A DNA stretch of 64,000 nucleotides from Longimicrobiales bacterium (GTDB lineage Bacteria; Gemmatimonadota; Gemmatimonadetes; Longimicrobiales; Gaopeijiaceae), in the NCBI GenBank assembly GCA_951813395.1, contig OX638356.1:2244501-2308500 (forward strand), written 5' to 3'. How positions within the stretch are numbered: position 1 is the first letter of the stretch; each line of letters begins with the position of its first letter. The position numbers were made by a program, and so were the translations under genes. Below, in pieces: positions 28,470 to 31,763 of the stretch. The notes beneath the pieces were generated by a model. That model searched no databases, was not told where the DNA came from, and saw nothing but the letters and a program-made list of their open reading frames with translations.

Positions 28470-29084
28470 CTACATTTCCCGCCGGCCGGCCAGAGCCTCG
28501 CCGATGGTGGTGCCGTCAACATACTCCAGATCACTTCCGACCGGGATACCCCTGGCCAGACGGGTCACACGCGATACATGCGGGCTGAGCAGGCCCTGCA
28601 GGTAGACCGCGGTAGCCTCTCCCTCGACGCTCGCGTTGGTCGCGAGGATAACCTCCACGGGCGTTTCGGGCGCATTGGCGATCCGGCTGACCAGACCATC
28701 GATATTCAGGTGTTCCGGACCGATTCCGTCAAGAGGAGAGAGACGGCCGCCAAGGACATGGAAGAGTCCGCGGTAGCGCCCGGCCCTCTCGATGGCACCT
28801 ACCTCGTAGGCTTCCTCAACCACGCAGATCACACCCTGATCACGGGACGGGTCCCGGCACACCGGGCAGAGCGCGCTGTCGCAATAGTTGCCGCACTGCG
28901 GGCAGGGGTGTATCCGCTCCGCGACCTCCAGAAGCACCTTCGCAAGCCGGCGCACATCGTCCCTGGACCCCTTGACGAGGTGAAACGCCAGGCGCAACGC
29001 GGTCTTGGTTCCGATCCCGGGAAGCTTCCGCAGTTCTCGGCAGAGCCCCTCGATCGGCGATTCTTCCGGGCGGCGGCTGTCCAA
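28470..29084 (-). CDS. recR: Recombination mediator protein RecR
   Basis: RecR works with RecF/RecO to load RecA at gaps. The 204-residue protein has the N-terminal helix-hairpin-helix LRKLPGIGTKTALRLAFH, a four-Cys zinc finger (CPQCGNYCDS with CPVC), and a Toprim domain starting VICVVEEAYEVGAIE with ILATNASVEGEAT. The start appears to be TTG at 29084, 9 nt after the ybaB stop. dnaX-ybaB-recR is one of the best conserved bacterial gene strings, which supports the call. Confidence 0.95.
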   Translation of the reverse strand: MDSRRPEESPIEGLCRELRKLPGIGTKTALRLAFHLVKGSRDDVRRLAKVLLEVAERIHPCPQCGNYCDSALCPVCRDPSRDQGVICVVEEAYEVGAIERAGRYRGLFHVLGGRLSPLDGIGPEHLNIDGLVSRIANAPETPVEVILATNASVEGEATAVYLQGLLSPHVSRVTRLARGIPVGSDLEYVDGTTIGEALAGRREM

Positions 29085-29093
29085 GAGCCCGAG

Positions 29094-29411
29094 TCAGAAC
29101 AGTCCGGGCAGCTGGACCGGCAGTCCTCCCGCCGCCCCGCGCATCCGTTCTTCCGAAAACTCTCGTGCGCGGTTCTGCGCCTCCGCCACGGCCGCCACGA
29201 CCAGATCCTCGAGCATCTCGGGATCTTCCGGGTCGATCACGTCCCGGTCGATCGAGATCCCCCTGAGGTCGCCCTTGCCGTTCACGCGCGCGGTCACCAT
29301 GCCGCCCCCCGACGAAGCCGTCAGTTCTTCCGTGTGCAGGCTGTCCTGGAGCTCCTTGATCCTGGCCTGGATCTGCTGTCCCATTTTCATCAATTGCTGG
29401 ATATTCGTCAT
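29094..29411 (-). CDS. ybaB: YbaB/EbfC nucleoid-associated protein
   Basis: The 105-residue protein is a small DNA-binding nucleoid-associated protein of the YbaB/EbfC family. It has the N-terminal helix NIQQLMKMGQQIQARIKELQ, the beta strand VTASSGGGMVTARVNGKGD with the conserved glycines, and IDPEDPEMLEDLVVAAVAEA. I chose the ATG at 29411 (MTNIQQLMKM) because longer readings run into dnaX. It lies between dnaX (32 nt) and recR (9 nt), the standard position. Confidence 0.94.
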   Translation of the reverse strand: MTNIQQLMKMGQQIQARIKELQDSLHTEELTASSGGGMVTARVNGKGDLRGISIDRDVIDPEDPEMLEDLVVAAVAEAQNRAREFSEERMRGAAGGLPVQLPGLF

Positions 29412-29442
29412 TTCGTTTCCGCCGGTTCCATGGATTCGCCGC

Positions 29443-31170
29443 TCAGTCGACCAACTCGAGATCCAGTTCCACGACGGCCCTCTCAAGTTCCGGAGCGCGT
29501 TTGACCAGTTCGTTCAAACGCGACTCCTGAACCGAGTCCCGAGTAATCCTCCCGGTGGCACTGCCCGGTGGGCCGGCTCTCCCGCCCGGAGCACTCTCCC
29601 CGTCTGAACGGTCACCCTCGTCAATCTCGATTGAAATCTCTGCAGATTCGCGGCCCGAATGAAGGGCCAGCGCGTCGAGCAGCGCCCGCCGGCTCGCAGC
29701 GTCCCGCAGTTCGTCGGAGGCCGGCCCGGCGGCAACGACCAGCGAAAGTCCCTGGCCGGTCTCGGTCAGCCTGGCCGATGTGCGCAGAAGGAACGAAAGA
29801 GCCCGTTGAACCCGTTTGCGGTCCCGCAACACGGTGTTCCACACCGCATCGAGAGCCCCGCCGGGCGCTCTCGGCTGCGCGACGGAATCGCCGGGGCTTC
29901 CGGGGTCGCCCGGGGCGTCGGGCCCGGCTGGCGCGACGGCGTCGGCGATATCGCCGGAAGCGTCGGACCCCGCGGCCCGGGCGGGGGCCTGCACCGCCGG
30001 TGCCGGAACCCTCGGCGGTGTCCGACCGAGTGCCCGGATGATCTCCTCCAGTTCCACGGTCCGGTCGAGGTAGCTCATGCGCAGCAGGAGCATCTCGATG
30101 AGGACCCGCGGTCTGCCCGTCCGCCGCAGGCTGCCGTCGGCCTCCAGCGCCGCGGCCATGGCCAGCATCCTGACCAGGTCCCCCGGCGCGAACGCTGCCG
30201 CCCGCCGGGCGAAGTCGTCGCGCAGCTCCTCGTTGAGATCGTCTGCCGTGGAAGAGGAATCCAGCGACATGCGCAGCAGCAGCCGCAGCTTCTCGGCCAG
30301 CCCGTAGTAGAACTCGACGAGATCGTACCCTTCGTCGATCAGCTCCTCGACGAACTCGAATACGGCCCCGTGCCGGCGCTCGATGACGATGTCGAAGAGA
30401 TCCAGGTAGCGTTGCTCGTCGACCACCCCGAGCACGCGCACCACGGAGTCCATGCTGACCCTCTCATCGGACAGGGCCAGCACCTGGTCCAGAAGCGACA
30501 GCCCGTCGCGCATCCCCCCGTTCGCTTTCCGGGCAATCGCCCGCAACGCCTCGGGTTCCGCCTTGAGACCCTCGGCCTCCAGCACCTCATCCAGCCGCTT
30601 CATGATGTCCGTGGCGCCGATTCGGCGGAAATCGAACCGCTGGCAGCGCGACAGGATCGGCGACGCACTCTGGCGGATCTTGCGAGGCTCCGTAGTGGCG
30701 AAGACGAAGATCACCCTGGGCGGGGGCTCCTCCAGGATCTTGAGGAGTGCGTTCCACGCCTCGCGCGTGAGCATGTGGGCCTCATCGAGGATGTAGACCT
30801 TGTAGCGGTCCGCCTCGGACGGAGCATACATGGCGCGTTCACGAAGCTCGCGGGCATCGTCGACGCCGCGGTTGGAGGCCGCGTCGATCTCCACGACATC
30901 GAGCGAGGTATGGCCCGCCCAGATGTGGGAGCAGTCCCGGCAAACGCCGCACGGCTCTCCCTCGGTGGTGCGGTCGGGGCAATTGAGCGACATCGCGAGC
31001 ACCCGTGCCAGCGTGGTCTTGCCGACGCCCCGCGGACCACAGAAGAGGTACGCATGACCGACGCGGTTCCCGGCCACCGCATGCCGAAGCGTGTGGGACA
31101 CGTGCTCCTGCGTGGAGACCTCCCCGAAGCGCCGGGGTCGGTATTTGCGTGCTAGCGCGAGATAGGACAA
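29443..31170 (-). CDS. dnaX: DNA polymerase III gamma/tau subunit
   Basis: DnaX forms the clamp-loader core. The 575-residue protein has Walker A in CGPRGVGKTTLAR, a zinc finger with CPDRTTEGEPCGVCRDC, DEAH in YILDEAHMLT, the sensor motif ILSRCQRFDFRR, then an Ala/Pro-rich linker (about 385-450) and a C-terminal domain. SASPILSRC shows a slightly altered KIPxTI region. The frame opens with TTG at 31170, giving SYLALARKYRP, the usual N-terminus. I found no A-rich slippery site for a gamma-form frameshift. The SRP RNA gene lies just upstream, transcribed in the same direction. Confidence 0.95.
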   Translation of the reverse strand: MSYLALARKYRPRRFGEVSTQEHVSHTLRHAVAGNRVGHAYLFCGPRGVGKTTLARVLAMSLNCPDRTTEGEPCGVCRDCSHIWAGHTSLDVVEIDAASNRGVDDARELRERAMYAPSEADRYKVYILDEAHMLTREAWNALLKILEEPPPRVIFVFATTEPRKIRQSASPILSRCQRFDFRRIGATDIMKRLDEVLEAEGLKAEPEALRAIARKANGGMRDGLSLLDQVLALSDERVSMDSVVRVLGVVDEQRYLDLFDIVIERRHGAVFEFVEELIDEGYDLVEFYYGLAEKLRLLLRMSLDSSSTADDLNEELRDDFARRAAAFAPGDLVRMLAMAAALEADGSLRRTGRPRVLIEMLLLRMSYLDRTVELEEIIRALGRTPPRVPAPAVQAPARAAGSDASGDIADAVAPAGPDAPGDPGSPGDSVAQPRAPGGALDAVWNTVLRDRKRVQRALSFLLRTSARLTETGQGLSLVVAAGPASDELRDAASRRALLDALALHSGRESAEISIEIDEGDRSDGESAPGGRAGPPGSATGRITRDSVQESRLNELVKRAPELERAVVELDLELVD

Positions 31171-31211: not shown

Positions 31212-31311
31212 GTGCCCCAGGCACTCCGCGGCGACGTTCACCACACTTACCGCTGCTACCTGCGGGGTCCTGACGGGGTTCATGAGTTCCCGTCCCGCGG
31301 ACCTGGGGCAC
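31212..31311 (-). ncRNA. ffs: Signal recognition particle RNA (4.5S type)
   Basis: On the minus strand a 100-nt RNA folds into one long hairpin: GUGCCCCAGG pairs perfectly with CCUGGGGCAC, then UCCGCGG with CCGCGGA, and the conserved symmetric loop AACCCCGUCAGG opposite AGCAGCGGUAA is present. This is the SRP Alu-less bacterial form that binds Ffh and helps target membrane proteins. The apical part differs from nearly all known bacterial SRP RNAs: ACC-CCGCA-GGU replaces the usual GGAA-capped stem. A promoter ends 5 nt before its 5' end. Location before dnaX is common. Confidence 0.9.
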
Positions 31312-31316
31312 GGCCA

Positions 31317-31346
31317 AAGCTACCCGGGTCCGGGAGGGGGCGTCAA
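31317..31346 (-). promoter_or_regulatory. Predicted promoter of the SRP RNA gene
   Basis: TTGACG (31341-31346) and TAGCTT (31317-31322) are separated by 18 nt, and transcription about 6 nt after the -10 would begin at the first base of the SRP RNA stem. The agreement between the box spacing and the independently recognised 5' end supports both. Confidence 0.55.
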
Positions 31347-31388: not shown

Positions 31389-31763
31389 CTACATGCCGGG
31401 GCGCCACGCGTCCGGGATGTGCTCGATGCGCGGCGTGCCTCGGGTCATGTCCACTGCGATCGCGTCGAAGCGGTAAGTGACCCCGGCTTTGCCGTTCTCG
31501 TGGATCCATCGGCGGGCCGCCGCCTCCACGGTTCTCCGCTTCGGCGCCCGAATCGGCTCCAGGGGCGTCCCGCCGGTGGTCGAGGAACGGGTCTTCACCT
31601 CCACAAAAGCCACGGTACCGCCGCGTTCCGCGACGAGATCCAGCTCCTTGGGACCCGCCCTGAAGTTGCGCGCCAACAGCACCCATCCCCGTGCCCGCAG
31701 ATAGTCCGCCGCCACGGCTTCGCCACGCCGTCCCAGGCCCCACCGATCGCTATCGTTCCTCAT
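31389..31763 (-). CDS. YraN/UPF0102 endonuclease-like protein
   Basis: The 124-residue protein belongs to the UPF0102 (YraN) family of restriction-endonuclease-fold proteins with unproved function. It has the family pattern GRRGEAVAADYLRARGW, ARNFRAGPKELDLVAERGG with the E-D metal ligands, and FVEVKTRSS (ExK). Length is normal. It stands between the DAHP synthase gene (57 nt upstream) and the SRP RNA promoter. A DNA-processing role is likely by fold only. Confidence 0.88.
   Translation of the reverse strand: MRNDSDRWGLGRRGEAVAADYLRARGWVLLARNFRAGPKELDLVAERGGTVAFVEVKTRSSTTGGTPLEPIRAPKRRTVEAAARRWIHENGKAGVTYRFDAIAVDMTRGTPRIEHIPDAWRPGM

Follow-up and report, generated by a model that had tools for sequence, protein, structure and literature searches.

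The GGAA cap is regarded as an all but universal element by which the SRP RNA of bacteria accelerates receptor docking, and Lys399 and Arg386 are important residues at the surface of FtsY that faces this cap. According to the accessible parts of the papers cited here and below, FtsY contacts the GGAA cap together with the two C-G pairs below it (PMC11404819), and this contact is made within a short-lived early complex of SRP and its receptor (PMC4737761); residues at the RNA-facing surface of FtsY are named in PMC6059433. UMAC loops are described as mimics of GNRA, and in GNRA-like pentaloops the additional base is placed between n4 and n5 (Cas6-bound crRNA) or between n3 and n4 (P22 boxB) (PMC12550061). 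The chloroplast SRP RNA of Physcomitrella has an apical loop of ~10 nt and weakened cpSRP54 binding (PMC5115805).

Here we analyse the SRP RNA gene within a 64,000-nucleotide stretch of a Longimicrobiales genome (hereafter the window). It is an ordinary gene with an unusual, rule-bound cap, a phylum-level variant of a known RNA. Our literature search returned no description of these pentaloops; subscription literature on SRP RNA variation lay outside that search, and absence from print is not claimed.

An SRP RNA gene adjoining dnaX

The bacterial small SRP RNA gene, ffs, occupies 31212..31311 on the minus strand, as indicated by RF00169, fold, covariation and dnaX linkage; we infer its predicted 5′ and 3′ ends from pairing of the outer stem. 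The covariance-model scan proposed in the preliminary description (cmscan) matched RF00169 at 31308..31212 on the minus strand, a strand left unstated in that description, with 41.3 bits (E 1.9e-5), and since the gathering score is 40 bits the locus qualifies as a family member. This is the single RF00169 match in the whole 4.09-Mb single-contig genome, and the large-SRP model, RF01854, matches the same locus only. A canonical second SRP RNA, which the preliminary description had named as grounds against its own reading, was therefore rejected as far as these two models reach.

The Ffh-binding internal-loop motif is present. The core GUCAGG-ACC-CCGCA-GGU-AGCAGC, which comprises this internal loop and the apex, lies at 31252..31274 on the minus strand and is the sole genomic match of GTCAGGNCCN{3,8}GGNAGCAGC; the genome also encodes an Ffh with an SRP_SPB domain. 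Two statements made from the letters are thus borne out, namely that the conserved CAGG...AGCAGC region is intact (GUCAGG..AGCAGC) and that the apex, reading ACC-CCGCA-GGU, has a loop of five bases and no GGAA. The pentaloop CCGCA replaces GGAA at 31261..31265 (minus strand), as seen in the sequence, in the MFE fold and in common with relatives. A GGAA/GNRA tetraloop, a feature usual for RF00169 and not demanded by the model, is lacking here.

The MFE fold of the full-length RNA is the expected rod with a 3-bp stem and a 5-nt apical loop, at −53.3 kcal/mol, a value reached by 0 of 200 shuffled sequences. For an isolated 35-nt piece bearing the CCGCA apex, the MFE structure is not the expected hairpin; for isolated 34–35-nt pieces with GUGAA, UCGCC or GGAA, it is. 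This predicted misfold weighs mildly against a GNRA-like reading, although the full-length RNA folds as expected. In an alignment of 46 SRP RNAs, the window's among them, both partners vary at 15 of the 24 predicted pairs. Covariation backs the apical stem, as the pair beneath CC-GG is A-U in 34, G-C in 9, C-G in 2 and U-A in 1. The two C-G pairs directly under the loop are invariant (46/46), a figure shaped by the fact that most loci were found or cut with patterns demanding those pairs. The claim that all other helices are perfect proved too strong, as cmscan flags several non-standard pairs against the model.

Upstream of the gene, a −35-like hexamer TTGACG (31341..31346) and a −10-like hexamer TAGCTT (31317..31322), both on the minus strand, are separated by an 18-nt spacer, and the 3′ end of this TTGACG-N18-TAGCTT element lies 5 bases ahead of the predicted RNA 5′ end. 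Upstream DNA was long enough for comparison in 43 order-level loci (two others begin too near the gene), and in the same 37 of these TTGAC and TANNTT occupy these places, 28 of them as TAGCTT. The suggestion of a promoter at the 5′ end is supported by this conservation and not by a consensus promoter scan, which found none upstream of the window's ffs.

Directly 3′ of ffs lies dnaX (29443..31170; Pfam DNA_pol3_delta2, DNA_pol3_gamma3), accompanied by ybaB/ebfC (29094..29486; YbaB_DNA_bd) and recR (28470..29084; RecR_HhH, Toprim_4, RecR_C), and the upstream neighbor is a yraN-like UPF0102 gene (31389..31763; Pfam UPF0102), all on the minus strand. In 114 of 119 usable loci the SRP RNA is on the same strand as dnaX and no more than 1.2 kb upstream of it. 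Two SRP GTPase matches were found in the genome, one Ffh (with the SRP_SPB M domain) and one FtsY. Because the promoter-like sequence is conserved, dnaX adjoins, the core is intact, and both Ffh and FtsY are present, ffs looks functional, consistent with the earlier assessment, and looks like the working SRP RNA of this organism.

Apical loops in the Gemmatimonadota and beyond

The window's order was searched through 59 genomes, its own among them; RF00169 matches were obtained in 47, and all 47 have 5-nt loops; the 12 genomes without a match are uninformative on the loop, and two weak additional matches, in G020 and G021, were omitted from the count. CCGCA is found in 27 of the 47, GUGAA in 6, UCGCC in 5, UUGCC in 3, CCGCC in 2, and GUGCA, GCGCA, CUGCA and CUGCC in one genome each. 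These were caught by a loop regular expression in 46 cases, the CCGCA of L032, outside its flank rule, being read by eye. Seven loop types occur inside the window's own genus (23 genomes). The preliminary description had held that GGAA in relatives would point to a local error, and had proposed an alignment to see whether the loop is shared: none of the 46 other matching genomes has GGAA and five-base loops recur in 47/47. Only 13 of the 59 genomes pass the RF00169 cut-off, compared with 47 with any match, so annotation based on that cut-off will overlook many SRP RNAs in this order.

At the level of the class, a pattern free in loop length (3–8) matched 117 of 149 genomes, with 108 pentaloops and 9 tetraloops as tallied by reading the rows without a script. 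The tetraloops are seven GGAA (five in family f5, one in f8 and one in f6), one GAAA and one UAAC. Outside the window's order, pentaloops are found in 64 of 73 matching class genomes. The pattern missed 32 of the 149 genomes, some of which bear GAAA. Second rows in G162, G227 and G245 were left out of these counts, those of G162 and G227 looking like chance; a short-flank pattern was dropped from the tallies, its matches being equal in number to those of its backward control. The second row of G245, a canonical GGAA motif, comes from a different contig of this MAG (81% complete) and is perhaps foreign. Local sequencing error was rejected as the source of the window's loop, since pentaloops of the same type are common to its order- and class-level relatives.

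A draw across the phylum gave pattern matches in 187 of 249 genomes, and among the matches listed there are the rarer tetraloops GAAA, GAGA, GGCA and UAGC, with GGAA in one f7 genome. RF00169 was also run on 40 genomes, many of which had escaped either the pattern or RF00169 before, and on six f11 genomes of another class. The 21 matches, again tallied by reading, comprise six GGAA (all six f11 genomes), eight GAAA, three CCGCA, two CCGAA, one GUGAA and one UAGC. Because f11, which bears GGAA, sits outside the class, its sequences suggest that GGAA is the likely ancestral state of the cap.

Named contigs were scanned for GTCAGGNCCNNGNNGGNAGCAGC, which gave at least 115 stretches. Among the matches listed, 83 are Gemmatimonadota by title and 81 of these pass the flank check, the failures being L138, of a tRNA-embedded type, and L158, which runs off its contig end. 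Three further stretches among those listed (L108, L110 and L150) have SRP flanks under non-Gemmatimonadota labels; their DnaX proteins share 67%, 57% and 69% identity with that of the window, and the ones that the tree displays fall inside the phylum. L150 (VYDD01000073.1) is labelled Gammaproteobacteria SB0675_bin_31, yet its ffs and dnaX resemble those of Gemmatimonadota, and given its DnaX identity of 69% that label is probably wrong. Also among the matches listed are 28 chance-like stretches, of which 17 were scanned with Rfam, none reaching the RF00169 cut-off, and 11 were judged by their flanks. L171 was dropped as an SRP RNA candidate, being a chance match.

The pentaloop is usual among sampled Gemmatimonadota and rare in the single comparison phylum. 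The latter is that of genome G354, whose L097, one more of the listed stretches, has an SRP RNA below the Rfam cut-off (27.3 bits) with a CCGCA loop; this phylum was taken to be a different one on the basis of its loops and of a DnaX identity of just 43%. Of 151 genomes searched there, 66 match; by our reading of the rows, 63 have GNRA tetraloops (GGAA, GGGA, GAGA, GAAA), two have chance-like rows only, and CCGCA occurs in G354 alone. This RNA, at G354:C258:1625-1734, lies upstream of dnaX, and may reflect independent origin, transfer or a misbinned contig.

Two families stand apart. In f9, no SRP RNA was found in eight genomes (G182, G184, G188, G192, G204, G214, G226, G243) by model R1 or the pattern, with RF00169 run on five, a weak negative because each of the two models scored only part of its candidates and most f3 genomes likewise escaped R1. 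The f9 SRP RNA may be very divergent, rearranged or lost. Four of the eight genomes are single-contig.

In f3, of the window's order, RF00169 found no SRP RNA in G036, G040, G044, G046, G048, G054 and G058. Here a CCGCA core is flanked by tRNA genes, and tRNA-Val(cac) follows it immediately in each of six loci inspected, a pair of which share one sequence. Candidate two-hairpin RNAs lie at L046:297-384, L047:290-395, L138:804-913 (a named MAG contig matching the stretch of G044), L199:175-266 and L257:1488-1575. The consensus of these five distinct stretches is a short helix-8 hairpin with the pentaloop, abutted on its 3′ side by an 11-pair hairpin. When one sequence supplies the structure for all five, both partners vary in 5 of 27 pairs and pairing holds in 96.3% of cells, a result equalled by 1 of 500 shuffles. 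Single folds gave the two hairpins in four of the five stretches, L138 lacking the first. Stacked end to end, the predicted hairpins would rebuild the usual rod with its 5′ end in mid-stem, and this RNA looks like a candidate permuted or split-stem SRP RNA. A permuted SRP RNA described in Thermoproteus owes its circular form to the tRNA splicing machinery (PMC4731332, accessible part).

Loop sequence, tree and receptor

The five bases follow strict rules. Base 3 is G in all 108 class-level pentaloops, which were found with a pattern that makes no demand for G; base 2 is C or U in all 108, and base 4 is C or A, with one U. The ends of the loop are G..A in 42, C..A in 45, U..C in 18 and C..C in 3, so that no Watson-Crick 1-5 pair occurs among the 108; one U..A-ended loop was found outside this set (L216). 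With regard to GNR(N)A, the first G and last A occur together in 42 of 108 loops and do not in the C..A loop of the window, and the purine third base and free fourth base are there (G in 108/108; C, A or U). All G-first loops read G-Y-G-N-A and become GUGA or GCGA when base 4 is removed; U..C loops likewise become UNRC. The members that fit GNR(N)A are GUGAA, GUGCA, GCGAA and GCGCA. Since these sibling pentaloops fit, and most relatives with four bases are of GNRA or UNAC-like type, the shape of the cap may be GNRA-type even without the GGAA letters.

Close relatives also differ in length. The loops of L202, L203, L204, L075 and L205, from genus g70 of f6, are two UAAC, two UAGC and one UCGCC, and by its sequences this genus is a natural switch between four- and five-base caps with unchanged end letters. 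Among the matches listed for f6, GGAA, GGCA and GAGA stand alongside GUGCA and GUGAA, again with the end letters kept. In the alignment, the RNAs of L016 (UCGCC) and L017 (CCGCC) are separated by a single loop base.

On a 113-row DnaX tree, in which 107 rows have pentaloops, parsimony requires at least 12, 8, 0, 10 and 8 changes at loop positions 1 to 5, respectively, the zero at position 3 arising partly by construction, as 73 of 114 rows come from the G-demanding scan. Loop length changes twice, a lower bound because the six tetraloop rows include none with GGAA. L190, L142, L132, L192 and L100, far from dnaX or on the opposite strand, were left out of the tree, and L097 was excluded from the parsimony count for its long branch and other phylum. 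Of the 12 changes at position 1, five are C to U on the same branch as an A to C change at position 5, two are C to U alone, and five are C to G with A retained; three A to C changes at position 5 stand alone. Five joint branches would be expected by chance with p ~1e-5, on a simple branch count with ambiguous Fitch nodes resolved arbitrarily. A stricter independent-pairs test has the same direction: among the pairs listed, U goes with C in 3–4 of 5 and opposes it in none (median p 0.25, from too few pairs for significance). The loop ends tend to change jointly on this tree, which suggests that the two bases of a non-canonical pair evolve together, and such coupling escapes covariation tools founded on Watson-Crick pairs. 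Over the 114-row tree there are 29 changes among 15 loop types.

FtsY was found in 35 of 36 genomes searched (G039 being without), partnered by 17 pentaloop, 14 GGAA, three GAAA and one UAAC SRP RNAs. With E. coli numbering transferred by alignment, the equivalents of Lys399, Trp343, Arg386 and Val403 are identical and position 365 is aromatic in all 35. The Lys406 equivalent (K, R, Q or S) and Ser362 (A or S) vary within both loop groups. The columns that best separate GGAA from pentaloop genomes are E. coli 257, 373, 381, 438 and 456; these may follow families only. Key receptor residues therefore look unchanged in the alignment while the RNA cap differs. That they are kept with every loop type would favor a shape-preserving cap over a lost contact, though Lys399 could be kept for other reasons.

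A probable GNRA-like cap and its alternatives

We consider it fairly probable that this is a working SRP RNA in which GGAA gained one base to give an N-Y-G-N-M pentaloop (C-C-G-C-A here), with a GNRA-like cap that still serves FtsY. The one-base gain in a probably ancestral GGAA cap would account for the pentaloop in most sampled Gemmatimonadota. Bases 1 and 5 would form a non-Watson-Crick closing pair (G.A, C.A, U.C, sometimes C.C), base 3 would stand where GNRA has its R, and base 4 would be looped out in the manner of GNR(N)A pentaloops. What the FtsY G domain would then meet in the early SRP-receptor complex is a GNRA-like surface carried by the same two C-G pairs. The cap probably keeps the same job, and loss of function is not implied by the missing GGAA. 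CCGCA and CCGAA start with C, and the accessible part of PMC12550061 offers no precedent for a GNRA mimic closed by C.A. We consider rather unlikely the broader proposal that much of the phylum has remade the most conserved signal of its SRP RNA as interchangeable five-base GNRA mimics, their 1-5 ends coupled as non-Watson-Crick pairs (G.A, C.A, U.C), with FtsY reading the looped-out base 4.

The constancy of base 3 as G, with C or A (one U) at base 4 and a pyrimidine at base 2, could also mark a new recognition element, read base by base by a co-adapted FtsY or Ffh, for example through an extruded base 4; looped-out bases touch proteins in three of four solved GNRA-like pentaloops (PMC12550061, accessible part). 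We think this unlikely, as Lys399, Trp343, Arg386 and Val403 are equal in GGAA and pentaloop genomes. That retained Lys399, together with G3 in 108/108, the zero Watson-Crick 1-5 pairs and the joint 1-5 changes, also makes it improbable that the receptor dispenses with the loop and lets it drift under selection on the Ffh internal loops only, even though the loop letters are more variable than the CAGG/AGCAGC core and 29 changes among 15 types were counted on the tree.

Mismatched A+.C, U.C, C.C and G.A pairs can all stack in helices, and this ability would suit a Y-G-N triloop on a mismatch-closed helix, of a shape unlike GNRA. We regard that arrangement as very improbable: it predicts Watson-Crick 1-5 pairs, of which none were seen in 108 loops (one U..A elsewhere, L216), and relatives whose four-base loops keep those end letters are a better match to GNRA or UNAC. 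Nothing was found in favor of a sequencing or assembly error, or of an RNA other than SRP RNA, and this reading has a negligible chance of being correct, as the loops are common to many genomes and Rfam, fold, covariation, promoter-like sequence and adjoining dnaX are concordant. The preliminary description is partly borne out, in that this is a real SRP RNA with a non-GGAA pentaloop; beyond what it states, the loop is no local oddity, being the commonest state in the class-level sample, rule-bound and possibly GNRA-shaped. The close loop variants of this phylum and its unchanged key FtsY residues amount to a natural mutational series that could tell whether GGAA letters or only the GNRA shape are what FtsY reads.

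Compared with bacterial 4.5S-type SRP RNA (RF00169), the window's RNA shares the single rod, the CAGG/AGCAGC Ffh motif, the CC-GG apical pairs and the adjoining dnaX, and differs in an apex of five bases, CCGCA, rather than GGAA. Lambda boxB is a GNR(N)A pentaloop, and like the GNRA-like pentaloops the cap has five bases, GUGAA, GCGAA, GUGCA and GCGCA sharing their G..A ends, a purine at base 3 and variation at base 4; unlike them, the window's loop is C-first and known from sequence alone, and its partner would be FtsY. UNAC and UMAC tetraloops are approached by the UAAC within the set and by the U..C ends that recur in the UCGCC and UUGCC pentaloops, whereas the pentaloops have an extra base and G3, and UAGC is not UNAC by letter. 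Finally, chloroplast SRP RNAs with enlarged apical loops, as in Physcomitrella, have likewise lost the GNRA tetraloop in a genuine SRP RNA, but theirs is a loop of ~10 nt, while the cap described here is short, rule-bound and bacterial.
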